Assembly: GCA_902536655.1 (NCBI GenBank)
Contig: CACAYF010000007.1
Span: forward strand, 1 to 64,000
Source of the DNA: an uncultured Alphaproteobacteria bacterium
GTDB taxonomy: Bacteria; Pseudomonadota; Alphaproteobacteria; Methylaequorales; Methylaequoraceae
Length of the DNA stretch: 64,000 nucleotides
Direction: 5' to 3'
Below the pieces are notes generated by a model. That model was given only the letters and a program-made list of their open reading frames with translations, did not search any database and was not told where the DNA came from. Position numbers and translations under genes: made by a program. This document shows positions 16,699 through 35,370 of the stretch, in pieces (the stretch's first letter is position 1; every line of letters starts with the position of its first letter).

Positions 16699-16829
16699 TG
16701 CAGAATAAAGTTTTTGTTAAATTAATAATTTTTTTTTGTTTAATATTTTTTATGTCTTGCGGTAAAAAATCTAATCTAGAAAAATATCCTGGAAGTGAAA
16801 ATCCAAGAAACTATCCAAATGATGATTAA
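16698..16829 (+). CDS. lptM: small lipoprotein, LptM (YifL)-like
   Basis: 43-aa ORF below the track cutoff: MQNKVFVKLIIFFCLIFFMSCGKKSNLEKYPGSENPRNYPNDD; lipobox FMSC; TAATG overlap with argH; argH-lptM-lysA order. Confidence 0.75.
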   Translation: MQNKVFVKLIIFFCLIFFMSCGKKSNLEKYPGSENPRNYPNDD

Positions 16830-18051
16830 AGTTTCAGAATATAACAAATTTCTCTCTTACAATAAAAATAAACTCTTTTTGGAGGATATTCCCTTAGAAA
16901 ATTTGGGAGACAAATTTGATACCCCTTTATTTTGCTATTCCGTTTCACAAATTGAACATAACTTTATAGAATTGCAAAGAGCTTTTAAAAAAGTAAAACC
17001 TCTAATTTGTTATGCTCTAAAGGCAAATTTCAATAGTAACATTATAAAAATTTTGTCAAATCTAGGATGTGGAATAGATGTTGTTTCTAATGGCGAGTTG
17101 CAAAAATCTTTAAAAAATGGAGTTGATAATCAAAAAATTGTTTTTTCCGGTGTTGGAAAAACCAATAAAGAAATTGAAATAGCCATAAAAAAAAATATTA
17201 AACAAATTAATGTCGAAAGTATTGAAGAATTAGATGAAATTGCAATCATATGTAAAAGATTAAATAGAACAATAAATATTTGCTTAAGAGTAAACCCTGA
17301 TGTGGACGCAAAAACTCATGAAAAAATATCAACAGGTCGCTCTGAAGATAAATTTGGTATATCAGACAAAAAAGTTTATGAGATTTTTAAAAAGTATAAA
17401 ACAAATAAATTTATAAAAATTATTGGTTTATCAGTCCACATTGGTTCTCAAATTGTACTATTAGCGCCATTTTATAAGGCATTTAAAAAGATTAAATTAC
17501 AAATATTAAAACTAAAAAAAGAAGGATTTGAAGTTTCTTCACTAGATTTGGGAGGTGGTGTCGGAATAAAATATAACGATAAAAACAAAATTTTTGATAT
17601 TAGATCTTATGCTCAAGTTATAGACGAGTTATTTTCAGATTTAAATATAGAAATAATAATTGAGCCAGGAAGATATTTAGTGGGGGCCTCTGGAATAATC
17701 CTATCTAGAGTAATAAGAACGAAATCAGGAAAAAATAAAGATTTTGTTATTATCGATGCGGGAATGGATAATCTCATCAGACCGGCTTTGTATGGAGCAG
17801 AACATAAAATTATTCCAGTCAAAAAAAAAGCGGAAACAAATCTGAAAAGTTACGACGTTGTTGGACCTATATGCGAGACAAGTGATGTTTTTATTAAAAA
17901 AATGAAAATTCACAGATTAAATTCAGATGATTTAGTTGTAATATGTTCGACTGGAGCATATAGTTCTTGTATGGCATCAAACTATAATTTAAGAAAACCA
18001 GCAAAAGAAGTATTTATAAAAAAAAAGAAATTTATTCTTTCAAATAGTTAA
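16822..18051 (+). CDS. lysA: diaminopimelate decarboxylase
   Basis: PLP motif YALKANFNSNIIKIL; VHIGSQI; GGGVGIKY; EPGRYLVG; start at ATG 16822 (or 16819) rather than GTG 16795. Confidence 0.94.
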   Translation: MIKVSEYNKFLSYNKNKLFLEDIPLENLGDKFDTPLFCYSVSQIEHNFIELQRAFKKVKPLICYALKANFNSNIIKILSNLGCGIDVVSNGELQKSLKNGVDNQKIVFSGVGKTNKEIEIAIKKNIKQINVESIEELDEIAIICKRLNRTINICLRVNPDVDAKTHEKISTGRSEDKFGISDKKVYEIFKKYKTNKFIKIIGLSVHIGSQIVLLAPFYKAFKKIKLQILKLKKEGFEVSSLDLGGGVGIKYNDKNKIFDIRSYAQVIDELFSDLNIEIIIEPGRYLVGASGIILSRVIRTKSGKNKDFVIIDAGMDNLIRPALYGAEHKIIPVKKKAETNLKSYDVVGPICETSDVFIKKMKIHRLNSDDLVVICSTGAYSSCMASNYNLRKPAKEVFIKKKKFILSNS

Positions 18052-18053
18052 TA

Positions 18054-18686
18054 ATGAATGAAATTTTTTTCTTAAAAAACATTTCAATTTTTTCTAGAAA
18101 AAAAAAAATAGAAAATATAAATCTTAAAATTTTCCGCGGAGACTTTTTTGTAATAAAAGGGTCAAATTCAACTGGGAAATCGCTGCTACTTAAATTATTT
18201 TATTTAAAATTACTTCCTTCAAAAGGTTCTTTTTTTTTAAATGGAAAGAAAATAACAGAGAATTCTAAAAAAAAAATTATTGAAAATAGAAAAAAAATGG
18301 GAGTTATTCTTCAAAACGATTATCTAATACCTTTTTTTTCAGTCTATCAGAATATCGAATTAGCTAGTCAAATTCAAAACCTAAAAACAAATTTTGCTCA
18401 GAGAATGAATGAGATTTCCGAGTGGTTGGATTTAAATGACATCCAAAAAGAGAAAATTGTTAATTTATCTAACAGTCAAAAACAAAAGGTTGTAATTGCA
18501 AGAGCTTTAATAAATAATCCAAATATTATAATAGCCGATCAACCTGAAACTTTCTTAGATGAAGTATCTAAGAAAAAAATTTTCTATTTATTGGAGTATT
18601 TAAGTAAATTAGGATCAACAATTATTATAACTACAAATAAAGACATAAATATAAAAAAGTCTCATAAAATACTACAATTGAATTGA
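18054..18686 (+). CDS. ftsE: FtsE-like cell division ABC transporter ATP-binding protein with divergent catalytic motifs
   Basis: Walker A GSNSTGKS, Q-loop VILQNDYLIPFFSVYQNI, signature LSNSQ, Walker B IIIADQPE; immediately followed by ftsX. Confidence 0.8.
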   Translation: MNEIFFLKNISIFSRKKKIENINLKIFRGDFFVIKGSNSTGKSLLLKLFYLKLLPSKGSFFLNGKKITENSKKKIIENRKKMGVILQNDYLIPFFSVYQNIELASQIQNLKTNFAQRMNEISEWLDLNDIQKEKIVNLSNSQKQKVVIARALINNPNIIIADQPETFLDEVSKKKIFYLLEYLSKLGSTIIITTNKDINIKKSHKILQLN

Positions 18687-18692
18687 AAATTC

Positions 18693-19592
18693 ATGGTATA
18701 TTTTCAAGAAATTTTAAAAAAGACTCTTCTTAAGCAAGAAGAAAAATTTTTTCACGGCTTATCATTTATTATTATAAGTTTAATAGCTATACATATATCT
18801 ATTTATTTCAATTTTTATAAATTCTCAAGTAATTGGTTAGAGTTGGAATCAAAAAAAACTACATTTATTATCAGTAATTCAATTGACGAAAAAAAAATAC
18901 CACTTGATGTTACAGAACAAATAACCAGTTATCTTGCAAGTAACTCAGAGAAGGTAGAGTTCACTGTGATTGATAATAACCTTATTAAAGATAGCTTGGG
19001 ATTGACAAACTTTACAGATATGTCCGGACTAAGTCTACCATTCATCTTTCAAATAGTTACGGATGATAAATATGTTTTAGATGAAGTGTATACATCTGTA
19101 ATAAGTATTTCAGAAAATAGGTTAATAGAAAAATATTCTCATGAAGATCAGCTTTTTGAGATTTCATCTTTTATGAACAGAATTAAACTAATTATATTTA
19201 TGATGTGTCTAGTAATAATTACTCTATTTGCATTTTTGGTCATGAATATTGTAAAAGCTGCTCTGGTTAGCAATTTTAAATTTTTAGAAATGTTACAGAT
19301 AATGGGGGCAAGTAGCTTTGACTTATCAAAAAATATTTCACAAAGCATTGTAAAAAAAATAGTTCCAGGAGCTATTCTTAGTACAATATTTGTTTATTTA
19401 TTGAGTATTTTGCTAATAAAATTATTTGGCGTAAATTTTGATTTTTTTGATTCTTCATTTTTTATAGAAATAAATATTAGCACATTTATTATATTGATAT
19501 TGTTTATTGTGATATTTTTAATTTTATTACTATTTTTTTTAATGTCTTATTTGTTTTATTTTTTTGAGAAAAGATTTTTTGATAAATTTTAA
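18693..19592 (+). CDS. ftsX: FtsX-like cell division permease
   Basis: Four-TM topology with N-terminal periplasmic loop; EMLQIMGASSFDLSKNISQSIVKK; follows ftsE. Confidence 0.8.
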   Translation: MVYFQEILKKTLLKQEEKFFHGLSFIIISLIAIHISIYFNFYKFSSNWLELESKKTTFIISNSIDEKKIPLDVTEQITSYLASNSEKVEFTVIDNNLIKDSLGLTNFTDMSGLSLPFIFQIVTDDKYVLDEVYTSVISISENRLIEKYSHEDQLFEISSFMNRIKLIIFMMCLVIITLFAFLVMNIVKAALVSNFKFLEMLQIMGASSFDLSKNISQSIVKKIVPGAILSTIFVYLLSILLIKLFGVNFDFFDSSFFIEINISTFIILILFIVIFLILLLFFLMSYLFYFFEKRFFDKF

Positions 19593-20157
19593 AAAGATTT
19601 TTATTTTTTTGGTTTCTATCAAAGTGATTGCTTTGATTTGGTGGTTAATATTGATCTTCAATACGTTTCCGAAAAAATACTATTTTACAAATTTAGTATC
19701 AAGTAAATATAACTCGGCGATAATTGTATTAACGGGTGGAAAAGGAAGAATTGAAAAAGGAATTGATCTTTACAAAAATGGTCATGGTAGTTTTTTATTT
19801 ATCTCAGGCGTATTTCATGAATCTGAATTGGAAATAAAGCAACAAATTGAAAGACAGGTTTTTAACCATAACTGTTGTGTAGTTTATGATAAAAATGCAA
19901 CGAGCACACTTGAAAACGCACTTGAAGTAAAAAATTGGTTGGCAGAGAATCCAGAAATTGAAAATTTAATCTTGGTGAGTTCTTATTATCATCTCCCAAG
20001 AAGTTTTATAATTTTTAGCAATACTATAGGAGAAAAAAAAATTTTTCTTTCCCCAGCAGAATATAAATTAAAAGTGAATAATAATCTTTTTTTTCACATA
20101 AAATTAATATTTCTAGAATTCGTCAAAGTCATTTATACGATAATTTCTTTAATATGA
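19564..20157 (+). CDS. YdcF/ElyC-family DUF218 protein
   Basis: AIIVLTGGKGRIEKGIDLYKNG...LFISGV...NATSTLENALEVKNWL...ILVSSYYHLPRS; start may be TTG 19579. Confidence 0.85.
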   Translation: MRKDFLINFKKIFIFLVSIKVIALIWWLILIFNTFPKKYYFTNLVSSKYNSAIIVLTGGKGRIEKGIDLYKNGHGSFLFISGVFHESELEIKQQIERQVFNHNCCVVYDKNATSTLENALEVKNWLAENPEIENLILVSSYYHLPRSFIIFSNTIGEKKIFLSPAEYKLKVNNNLFFHIKLIFLEFVKVIYTIISLI

Positions 20158-20843
20158 GATTTTTAAGAAGCTTTACCTTTTATATTTTTTTTTATACTGG
20201 AACAATATTTTTTTTCTTAATTTTCTCACCTGTCTGGCTATTTACTAGAAACTTTGTTGTAACACTCTGTACTTTTTGGACAAAATCAGTAATAAAACTC
20301 TCAGAATTAATTCTAGGAATAAAATATGAAATAAAAGGGATTGAAAATATCCCTAAGTCTGGTTCTTTTGTTGTAGCAAGTAATCATCAATCAGCATGGG
20401 AAACCTTCTTTCTTGGCTCTCTTTTTCCAGGTTCAATTTTCATACTTAAAGATGAACTAAAGAAAATTCCAATATTTTCTCAGTACTTCAAAAAACTCGG
20501 ATTTATATTTGTTAAAAGAGAAAAGGCATTTGATTCGCTAAAGATTCTATTAAAATCTGTAAGAAAATTAATCTTACAAAATAATAGTATTTTCATCATT
20601 TTTCCTGAGGGAACAAGAATCAAGCCTGGAGACAGAATAAAATTAAATTCAGGAGTTTTTGCCATACACAAATTTTCAGGTTTACCTATTCTTCCAATCA
20701 AACTTAACTCTGGAAAGTATTGGATTAATAAAAAGTTTAATAAAAAGAAAGGTACAATTATGATTAAAATCTTTCCAACTATAAATAAAGAAGATGATAA
20801 AGAAAAAGTTATGACAAAACTTGCAAATTATTATTATCAATAA
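20154..20843 (+). CDS. plsC: 1-acyl-sn-glycerol-3-phosphate acyltransferase
   Basis: ASNHQSAWETF (HX4E variant seen in some PlsC), FPEGTRIKPG. Confidence 0.9.
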   Translation: MRFLRSFTFYIFFYTGTIFFFLIFSPVWLFTRNFVVTLCTFWTKSVIKLSELILGIKYEIKGIENIPKSGSFVVASNHQSAWETFFLGSLFPGSIFILKDELKKIPIFSQYFKKLGFIFVKREKAFDSLKILLKSVRKLILQNNSIFIIFPEGTRIKPGDRIKLNSGVFAIHKFSGLPILPIKLNSGKYWINKKFNKKKGTIMIKIFPTINKEDDKEKVMTKLANYYYQ

Positions 20844-32854: not shown

Positions 32855-34360
32855 ATGAGAAAGAAAGTACTAATTTGCATCTTAGACGGTTGGGGATTGG
32901 GGAAGGAGAATTCCCATAATGCTATTTTCCTTGCAAAAAAAAAAAATTTTGATTATCTAACAAAAAAATACGGATATCTTAAACTAAAGGCCTCAGAAAA
33001 TGACGTAGGATTACCCACTGGTCAATTTGGAAATTCTGAAGTTGGACACACAAATATTGGAGCTGGAAGAATCATTCTTCAAGATGTAATGAGAATTTCA
33101 GAATCCTTTGGGAATGGAGAGATTAAAAATAAATCTGCCATAACAAATATTTTAGAAAATTGTAAAAGGATCCACATTGTTGGTTTGATTTCTGAGGGAG
33201 GAGTTCATGGGCATCAAGATCATCTTTTTGATCTAATAGAAATTCTTAATAGAAAAAAACCAATTATTTTTATTCATTGTATTTTAGATGGAAGGGATAG
33301 CTCCCCAATTGGGGGTAAAGAAAATTTACGCGTATTAATCGAAAAAATAGGCAAAAGGAAAAATATCAAAATTGCCAGTATTTCTGGTCGATTTTTTGCT
33401 ATGGATAGGGATAACAGATGGGAAAGAATTGAGAAAGCTTATAAAGCTATTATAGAAGGTTCTGGACCAAAAAAGAGAAATTATTTATCTGCAATAATTG
33501 ATAGTTACAACAAACACATCACTGATGAATTTTTTGAACCAACTAATTTTGGTGATTATAACGGAGCTCAAGACGGAGACGGGTTTTTTATTACAAATTA
33601 TAGAGCTGATCGGGTAAGAGAAATTTTATCTTCTATATTTGATGATGATTTTAATCACTTTAAGAGAACAAAAATACCAAAATTTTTAAATCCAATTAGC
33701 ATGGTTGAATATTCAAAAAGATTAAAAAAAAAAATTAAACCAATTTTTGAATCAATTCAAATAAAAGAAACATTAGGCGAAGTGGTCTCTTGTTTTGGAT
33801 TAAAGCAACTAAGAGTTGCTGAGACAGAAAAATATGCGCACGTAACATATTTTCTTAATGGAGGAGTTGAAGAAAAATTTGATGGAGAGGATAGAATTTT
33901 GATCCCATCCCCAAGAGTAAAGACTTATGATATGAAACCAGAAATGTCAGCTTTTGAGGTAAGAGATCATGTTATAGAAAATATTAAAAAAAAAAAATAC
34001 GATTTAATTATAACAAATTTTGCGAATCCGGACATGGTTGGTCATACAGGTAATATAGAAGCTACTATTAAAGCAATCGAGGTAGTAGATGAATGTATTG
34101 GAAAGATTTTTAAACAATGTAAAAACAATGGATATTCACTTATTCTAACTTCAGACCACGGTAATGCTGAAAACATGTTCGATGAGAAAAAAAATATAGT
34201 ATGTACAACTCACTCACTAAATTTGGTTCCTTTTACTATTTGTGAAAAAATAAATTATTCAATCAAAACAGGTAAGCTTGCAGATATCGCTCCAACAGTA
34301 TTAAAGCTTCTCGGTATTAAAATTCCAATTCAAATGAGAGGAAAGCCACTTATTAAATGA
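32855..34360 (+). CDS. gpmI: 2,3-bisphosphoglycerate-independent phosphoglycerate mutase
   Basis: ICILDGWGLG; GNSEVGHTNIGAGRI; HCILDGRDS; NFANPDMVGHTG; LTSDHGNAE. Confidence 0.97.
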   Translation: MRKKVLICILDGWGLGKENSHNAIFLAKKKNFDYLTKKYGYLKLKASENDVGLPTGQFGNSEVGHTNIGAGRIILQDVMRISESFGNGEIKNKSAITNILENCKRIHIVGLISEGGVHGHQDHLFDLIEILNRKKPIIFIHCILDGRDSSPIGGKENLRVLIEKIGKRKNIKIASISGRFFAMDRDNRWERIEKAYKAIIEGSGPKKRNYLSAIIDSYNKHITDEFFEPTNFGDYNGAQDGDGFFITNYRADRVREILSSIFDDDFNHFKRTKIPKFLNPISMVEYSKRLKKKIKPIFESIQIKETLGEVVSCFGLKQLRVAETEKYAHVTYFLNGGVEEKFDGEDRILIPSPRVKTYDMKPEMSAFEVRDHVIENIKKKKYDLIITNFANPDMVGHTGNIEATIKAIEVVDECIGKIFKQCKNNGYSLILTSDHGNAENMFDEKKNIVCTTHSLNLVPFTICEKINYSIKTGKLADIAPTVLKLLGIKIPIQMRGKPLIK

Positions 34361-35370
34361 TAAAGATTTCAATAATAATTGTAGTGTGTTTGAATTTATC
34401 TAATGCATTTGCAAAAAACACAGATTTGAAAGTTAAATTAAACAGTCTAAAAAAACAAACCGTAAAAATTCATAATGAAATTTTGCTTAATAACAAGGAA
34501 TTAAAAAAAATTAAAATTGATTTAGATAGAAATACGCAAAAGAAAATTATTATAAATAAATATATTAAAAATAAGGATCTTTTAGGTAGGAGAATTATTT
34601 TTTTATTACAAGATAAGTTTTATACAAATCAATTTACAAGAATTGTAAGGGATCTTGACAATTCATCGCAAGAATTAATAACAAAGCAGATAATAAGAGA
34701 ATTTTTTTTAAAGGATGTTAAAACTGGTATCAACGAATACTTCTTGAACTTAGAAAATTTAAAGTCACTCGATAGTGAATTAGCATTAGAATTAGAAAAT
34801 TATAAAACGAAAAAGAAAAATTTAAAAAAAAAATTATTTAAGCTTGAAAAAAAAATAAAAGAAGTTGCTACGGTTCAAAAGAAGGTGAAAACTAACAACA
34901 AACTCAAACAAAAAGCTAAAGATCTTAGAAAAAAAGCAAAAAATTTAAATGACTTAGTAAAAGCCGCTGAAACAAAAAGAAAAATAATTTCCAAAATAAA
35001 ATCGAGAATTAAAATGCCAGTCTCAGGTGAAATAATCTCAGACTATGGGGAAGGAAAAGACCAACATAAACTAAAAAACGGTTTGGTTTTCAAGGTCAAG
35101 GAGGATTCATTCGTTACATCTCCAATGGATGGTACTGTGGTGTATGCTAATAAGTTCAAGAGTTTCGGAAATTTAGTAATGATAAAAGATAATAAAGGGT
35201 TCACTTCGGTGTTGATAGGCATGAGAAATTTGTTAATTTCAACTGGAAACGAAGTTTTGGTTGGAGAACCAATTGCAAAAATTTCTTCAACGCTACAAAG
35301 TCAACTTTATTTTGAATTGAGAGAAAATGGTAAAATTGTTGATCCAAAATCAAAAGTTGAGATTTTATAA
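34357..35370 (+). CDS. envC: EnvC-like murein hydrolase activator (coiled coil plus degenerate LytM domain)
   Basis: Signal peptide, long K-rich coiled coil, C-terminal M23-like fold with metal ligands replaced (QLYFELR where catalytic LytM has HLHFE). Confidence 0.8.
   Translation: MIKISIIIVVCLNLSNAFAKNTDLKVKLNSLKKQTVKIHNEILLNNKELKKIKIDLDRNTQKKIIINKYIKNKDLLGRRIIFLLQDKFYTNQFTRIVRDLDNSSQELITKQIIREFFLKDVKTGINEYFLNLENLKSLDSELALELENYKTKKKNLKKKLFKLEKKIKEVATVQKKVKTNNKLKQKAKDLRKKAKNLNDLVKAAETKRKIISKIKSRIKMPVSGEIISDYGEGKDQHKLKNGLVFKVKEDSFVTSPMDGTVVYANKFKSFGNLVMIKDNKGFTSVLIGMRNLLISTGNEVLVGEPIAKISSTLQSQLYFELRENGKIVDPKSKVEIL

Follow-up and report, generated by a model that had tools for sequence, protein, structure and literature searches.

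RESULTS

A divergent ftsE paired with ftsX

The window, meaning the whole 64,000-nucleotide stretch of DNA analyzed, comes from a genome of 1.42 Mb in 32 contigs that belongs to the order TMED127. This order, for which the name Methylaequorales has been proposed, contains surface-ocean bacteria with streamlined genomes (~1.5 Mb) that are apparently obligate methylotrophs, in 1 family and 12 genera (PMC12542740). The relevant features of the window are these:

16795-18051, + strand: lysA, upstream neighbor of ftsE
18054-18686, + strand: ftsE, divergent, 210 aa, ATP-hydrolysis residues degraded (NCBIfam, Pfam ABC_tran, AlphaFold/Foldseek)
18159-18182, + strand: Walker A, GSNSTGKS; Lys42 and Ser43 retained, fourth Gly replaced by Ser39 (18168-18170)
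18465-18479, + strand: signature, LSNSQ (canonical LSGG[EQ]); Ser139 retained, Gly140 to Asn, Gly141 to Ser
18537-18548, + strand: Walker B end, D162-Q163-P164-E165 (IIIADQPE); catalytic Glu replaced by Gln (CAA, 18540-18542)
18636-18638, + strand: H-loop position 195 (TTN), Asn (codon AAT) in place of the switch His
18693-19592, + strand: ftsX, 299 aa, intact partner (Pfam, AlphaFold topology, Foldseek)
19564-20157, + strand: YdcF/DUF218-like gene, conserved downstream neighbor (sequence reading, synteny)
20154-20843, + strand: plsC-like acyltransferase gene, conserved downstream neighbor (sequence reading, synteny)
34357-35370, + strand: EnvC/LdpF-like coiled coil plus LytM protein, metal ligands replaced (NCBIfam EnvC, Pfam M23, reading)

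Among 175 matching NCBIfam families, TIGR02673 (FtsE) was the best for the product of 18054-18686, at 137.8 bits against a curated cut-off of 264.85. Pfam ABC_tran scored 93.7 bits. The AlphaFold monomer (pLDDT 89.9) gave a TM of 0.90 to the solved FtsE chains 8ymc/8hd0. The adjoining ftsX, the shared gene order (see below) and the top family mark the gene as an ftsE by descent. This assignment leans mainly on synteny and the partner, because the tree yields an order-specific branch facing the outgroup FtsE proteins. An Rfam scan of 15-23 kb of the window matched no family.

The elements of an ABC ATP-binding fold are all present: Walker A Lys, Walker B Asp, Q-loop Gln (Q87), signature Ser and D-loop Asp. 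Two residues of catalytic competence are missing, with the Walker B Glu replaced by Gln163 and the switch His by Asn195. Key positions carry the same numbers in E. coli FtsE, namely E163, S139, G141 and H195 (PMC11491553) and D162 (PMC7343993). An earlier note on this locus had reported the Gln codon, the LSNSQ signature and the H-loop Asn, and we read all three directly. Its statement that Walker A and the Q-loop Gln are kept holds for Q87 but not for Walker A. The ABC consensus there is GxxGxGK, and the fourth Gly is Ser39 in the window, as against Gly in 80 of 80 outgroup proteins. In addition, an acid (E165) replaces the otherwise invariant Thr at position 165.

The open reading frame at 18693-19592 bears out the claim of an intact ftsX. 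Its product scored slightly short of the Pfam FtsX cut-off (22.8 versus 25.5). AlphaFold (pLDDT 82) predicted four long helices, the first two separated by a periplasmic domain, which is the topology of the FtsX permease. The top Foldseek matches were solved FtsX chains (8ymc, 8tzk, 8i6o and 8w6i), at low TM values of 0.30-0.45. Compared with FtsEX of E. coli and other Proteobacteria (type VII ABC, TIGR02673), the window thus has the same ftsE-ftsX pair, the same fold (TM 0.90), the same Walker A Lys, Walker B Asp, Q-loop and D-loop, and an EnvC-type partner. It differs in lacking the catalytic Glu, the switch His, the fourth Walker A Gly and the signature Gly, and in scoring below the family cut-off.

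The EnvC and amidase module

The predicted EnvC-like protein was also found at 34357-35370. NCBIfam EnvC was its top family at 61.7 bits (below the cut-off of 270), and Pfam M23 scored 65.4 bits over residues 240-330. The coiled coil and the replaced metal ligands, judged by reading, are those of an EnvC/LdpF-type protein. EnvC-like M23/LytM proteins occur throughout TMED127. A protein with AMIN and Amidase_3 domains was present in 28 of 32 genomes, as one copy per genome except for one genome with two, and the active-site motif of the source-genome amidase is intact by reading. The source genome also encodes a LysM-LytM protein (C9:28294-29169) whose nearest models are DipM, ActS and NlpD.

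Distribution of the substitutions

The order was sampled by 32 genomes covering 12 genera and 1 family, all single-cell or metagenome assemblies. ftsE was present in 28; the other four are only 54-77% complete. ftsE and ftsX were open and adjacent in 27 of the 28, the sole broken ftsX (L024, on G015:C7) having one frame change within a T-run, possibly an assembly error. The comparison set was drawn from alphaproteobacterial families outside the order and comprised 80 class-level FtsE proteins, each from a different genome. Nearly all scored above 227 bits; a few of the lowest-scoring may be other ABC subunits. In this set, Glu163, Gly39 and Thr165 were each found in 80/80 proteins and His195 in 79/80. 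Thus, unlike TMED127, the surveyed families outside the order keep canonical residues. An unrelated alphaproteobacterial FtsE-like protein (L198, G154:C283:3106-3744) has Arg at the switch His position and the signature FSRGE, with the catalytic Glu kept.

Within TMED127, His195 was absent from 28/28 proteins, its place taken by N (16), S (7) or K (5). Position 163 was Q (22), Y (1) or E (5). At Walker A position 39 we found S (12), A (11) or G (5), Gly39 occurring in precisely the five proteins that have Glu163. The 23 proteins without Glu163, and no others, carry an acid at position 165, E in 22 and D in one; the five with Glu163 have M, I or T there. Both DQP and LSNSQ were seen in all 12 window-genus genomes that have ftsE. 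The earlier note had asked whether relatives restore DEP or the His. None did within the genus or the 23-member clade: DQP recurred in 11/11 further window-genus genomes and in 10/11 members of the clade from other genera, the remaining one being DYP. That protein (L022, G026:C38) reads DYPE, with Tyr at the catalytic position and the acid at 165 retained.

No second canonical FtsE turned up, another outcome the earlier note had wished checked; since none of the 32 TMED127 genomes has a gene above the TIGR02673 cut-off, the order has no canonical second copy. In a motif scan, the other readable ABC ATPases of the source genome ended Walker B with DE[PA], and most had a visible H-loop His; two or three were read only incompletely. 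One ABC ATPase gene (G000:C12:5499-5924, L230), probably ccmA by reading, has in-frame stops near Walker A, which may reflect a frameshift or a pseudogene in the source assembly. We found no previously described natural FtsE of this kind in the open-licence literature, which is not proof of absence.

Stepwise loss under purifying selection

In a maximum-likelihood tree, the 28 TMED127 proteins formed a single branch (support 100/100, stem 0.83), within which the 23 Gln/Tyr163 proteins formed a clade (support 100/97, stem 0.51). The simplest order of events would place the loss of His195 and of signature Gly140 on the stem of the order. Glu163 to Gln, Gly39 to Ala/Ser and the gain of an acid at 165 would then fall on the second stem. 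Under the same scheme, Gly141 gave way to Ser before genera g1 and g10 separated, and Gln163 became Tyr in one species.

The 23-member clade has a total length of 4.55 substitutions per site, with a mean of 3.05 parsimony changes per site. Against this background, positions 163 and 165 changed once each (at 165, a single E/D exchange), and Lys42, Ser139, Asp162, Pro164, Leu168 and Asp169 not at all. Among close Gln-type genomes, pairwise dN/dS was ~0.03-0.10 for ftsE, comparable to or below that of neighboring lysA, and 0.04-0.11 for ftsX. Pairs with saturated dS were left aside, and two values for the upstream gene (pairs L005-L008 and L025-L027) were discarded as misalignments or different genes. 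These data show that ftsE is under strong purifying selection, which answers the dN/dS question raised in the earlier note.

Correlated changes: a neighboring gene and an FtsA loop

The gene order argH-lysA-(TIGR02302)-ftsE-ftsX-ydcF-plsC is common to the window and to the genera with DEP-type FtsE. In each of the five Glu163 genera, ftsE is directly preceded by the TIGR02302/DUF4175 gene (L034:3554-5926, G013:C6, G015:C7, G016:C1 and G020:C7), and in SAT45 it sits between lysA and ftsE. No TIGR02302 gene separates lysA from ftsE in the window (18051-18054), and none of the 23 Gln/Tyr163 genomes had a TIGR02302 match. The gene was lost on the same branch as Glu163 to Gln. Elsewhere, among 41 alphaproteobacterial genomes with both genes on one contig, 33 have a same-strand TIGR02302 gene no more than 10 kb upstream of ftsE. 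AdvA, a DUF4175 protein, is an essential mid-cell division protein of Acinetobacter baumannii, a species without FtsEX (PMC7481262). This precedent and the linkage to ftsE make TIGR02302 a candidate FtsEX-associated factor in alphaproteobacteria. Its loss as the sole explanation, or as a simple switch, is ruled out, as 45 of 111 genomes with canonical FtsE have no TIGR02302 match.

The question of FtsA was raised from the literature ahead of the alignment. In E. coli, FtsE D162N stops septal synthesis via FtsA, and FtsA G366D uncouples FtsA from FtsEX (PMC7343993). The idea that TMED127 lacks FtsA, and hence a target for such a block, was rejected: FtsA scored above the cut-off in 23/32 genomes, and most of the remainder had weaker or partial matches. 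The TMED127 FtsA proteins examined were that of the source genome (L232, G000:C13:9123-10202) and L111-L122. The loop equivalent to the E. coli G366 site has 18-19 residues in 13/13 TMED127 proteins, versus 20-28 in 29/29 from other alphaproteobacteria. The TMED127 loop is 2-3 residues shorter, gap placement being approximate. By analogy with E. coli, the shortened loop may protect the divisome from a block by ATP-locked FtsEX. Each of the two changes, in FtsA and in TIGR02302, traces to one branch, so that each correlation rests on a single event.

DISCUSSION

Alternative explanations

Neither chance, sequencing error nor decay accounts for this FtsE: the substitutions are clade-wide, the module is retained, dN/dS is low, no genome carries an additional canonical FtsE, and those other ABC ATPases of the source genome that could be read look ordinary. 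Decay deserves a closer look. TMED127 genomes are streamlined, FtsE and FtsX fall below curated cut-offs, and four of 32 genomes have no ftsE match, though these are just 54-77% complete. If FtsEX were losing its function and the substitutions were neutral, however, one would not expect dN/dS of ~0.03-0.10, invariant Lys42, Ser139, Asp162 and Asp169, a Gln163 conserved across 4.55 substitutions per site, or a pair open and adjacent in all but one genome. We therefore consider decay very improbable, in agreement with the earlier view that the module is not simply decayed: ftsE is under purifying selection, and FtsX, EnvC, the amidase and FtsA are all retained. It is hardly credible that the gene encodes an ABC ATPase other than FtsE whose partner is a permease resembling FtsX. 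The score of 137.8 bits against a cut-off of 264.85 would fit such a protein, but FtsE is the best of 175 families, the top structural matches of the partner are FtsX, the argH-to-plsC order is shared with DEP genera, and the linkage of TIGR02302 to ftsE is widespread in the class.

The remaining alternatives retain some hydrolysis. The strict co-occurrence of an acid at 165 with the absence of Glu163 could mean that catalysis has been relocated, the acid of DQPE/DQPD serving as the general base so that ATP is still hydrolyzed in a rearranged active site. The acid is found in all 23 proteins without Glu163, even in DYPE, in 0/5 of those with Glu163 and in 0/80 of the outgroup, and it has varied only once, between E and D. 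Yet residue 165 comes after a Pro where the Walker B strand ends, and with the switch His missing and the Walker A and signature Gly changed, the site has lost several catalytic contacts. In our estimate, relocated catalysis is quite unlikely. Decidedly unlikely is the proposal that the clade rebuilt the ABC active site, with the carboxylate moved from 163 to 165 (DEPT to DQPE), the linchpin His dispensed with, and a new hydrolysis geometry in the homodimer. Alternatively, residual, very slow hydrolysis might set the lifetime of the closed state, with FtsEX cycling about once per division. Residues for ATP binding and dimerization are retained, Glu163 without His persists in five genera, and a slow cycle could suffice because TMED127 cells presumably grow slowly (oligotrophic, streamlined; PMC12542740). 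Losses on successive branches, on the other hand, are not obviously predicted by selection for one particular rate. Such a timer is unlikely.

FtsE as a probable ATP-bound scaffold

We consider it the best-supported reading, with moderate confidence, that TMED127 FtsE is a natural hydrolysis-impaired ('pseudo-ATPase') FtsE, an ATP-bound clamp or scaffold that recruits EnvC. From the residues retained and lost, FtsE would bind ATP, and the dimer would close and stay closed for long periods, holding FtsX in its ATP-bound shape. In this state FtsEX would serve at the septum as a static scaffold to which EnvC/LdpF and the single amidase are recruited. Other factors, the DipM/NlpD-like LysM-LytM protein for example, would supply timing and amidase activation.

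Glu to Gln at Walker B is the laboratory change used to jam ABC ATPases. In E. coli, FtsE E163Q traps ATP with the complex closed (PMC11491553). The residue and the change in the window are identical to those of E. coli FtsE(E163Q)X (PMC11491553) and P. aeruginosa FtsE(E163Q)X (8i6r/8i6s). Unlike the laboratory variants, the TMED127 change is natural, clade-fixed and tolerated in vivo, and Gln163 occurs together with an acquired acid at 165 and with the His and the Walker A Gly lost. Natural replacement of the catalytic Glu and/or His is familiar from the degenerate sites of heterodimeric or pseudo-symmetric ABC proteins such as CFTR, TAP and MRP1, which keep a second, unaffected site. FtsE, by contrast, is a homodimer, and both of its sites are affected together.

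Against this reading, E163Q or D162N disables or poisons division in E. coli (PMC7668044, PMC11491553, PMC7343993). E163Q supports neither low-salt growth nor antibiotic resistance (PMC7668044), and this single change is not tolerated (PMC7668044, PMC11491553), so the scaffold reading needs a permissive context. ATPase-dead E. coli FtsEX combined with FtsA G366D, however, still promoted EnvC-dependent cell separation, provided that NlpD was present, and the same study stated that the reason for ATP hydrolysis by FtsEX is not clear (PMC7343993). In Caulobacter, the EnvC-like LdpF recruits AmiC without activating it, activation being due to DipM (PMC10336132). Taken together, the E. coli and Caulobacter findings suggest that life with a hydrolysis-dead FtsE requires protection of FtsA and an activator independent of FtsEX. 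With the Caulobacter FtsEX-LdpF/DipM-AmiC system (PMC5607218, PMC10336132), TMED127 shares an EnvC-like recruiter, a single amidase and a LysM-LytM activator-type factor. Its DipM/NlpD-like protein and shorter FtsA loop therefore make a nucleotide-bound scaffold the best reading. The FtsA loop and TIGR02302 correlates may supply the permissive context.

The suggestion in the earlier note of an FtsE that binds but barely hydrolyzes ATP thus remains the best supported and agrees with E. coli genetics (PMC7343993), with the qualification that such a context is needed. That note did not include Ser39, the acid at 165 alongside Gln163, the loss of His before Glu, or the linked FtsA and TIGR02302 changes.

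These abundant ocean bacteria seem to have carried out the FtsEX hydrolysis experiment themselves: the residues for hydrolysis disappeared in a sequence that can still be traced, and the rest of the module stayed in place. The order offers natural intermediates, with His lost and Glu kept or with both lost, and candidate permissive changes in the FtsA loop and in the loss of the TIGR02302/DUF4175 neighbor. In TMED127 division, FtsE probably works not as a motor but as a static clamp, and these bacteria provide a direct test of whether FtsEX can function as a nucleotide-bound scaffold.
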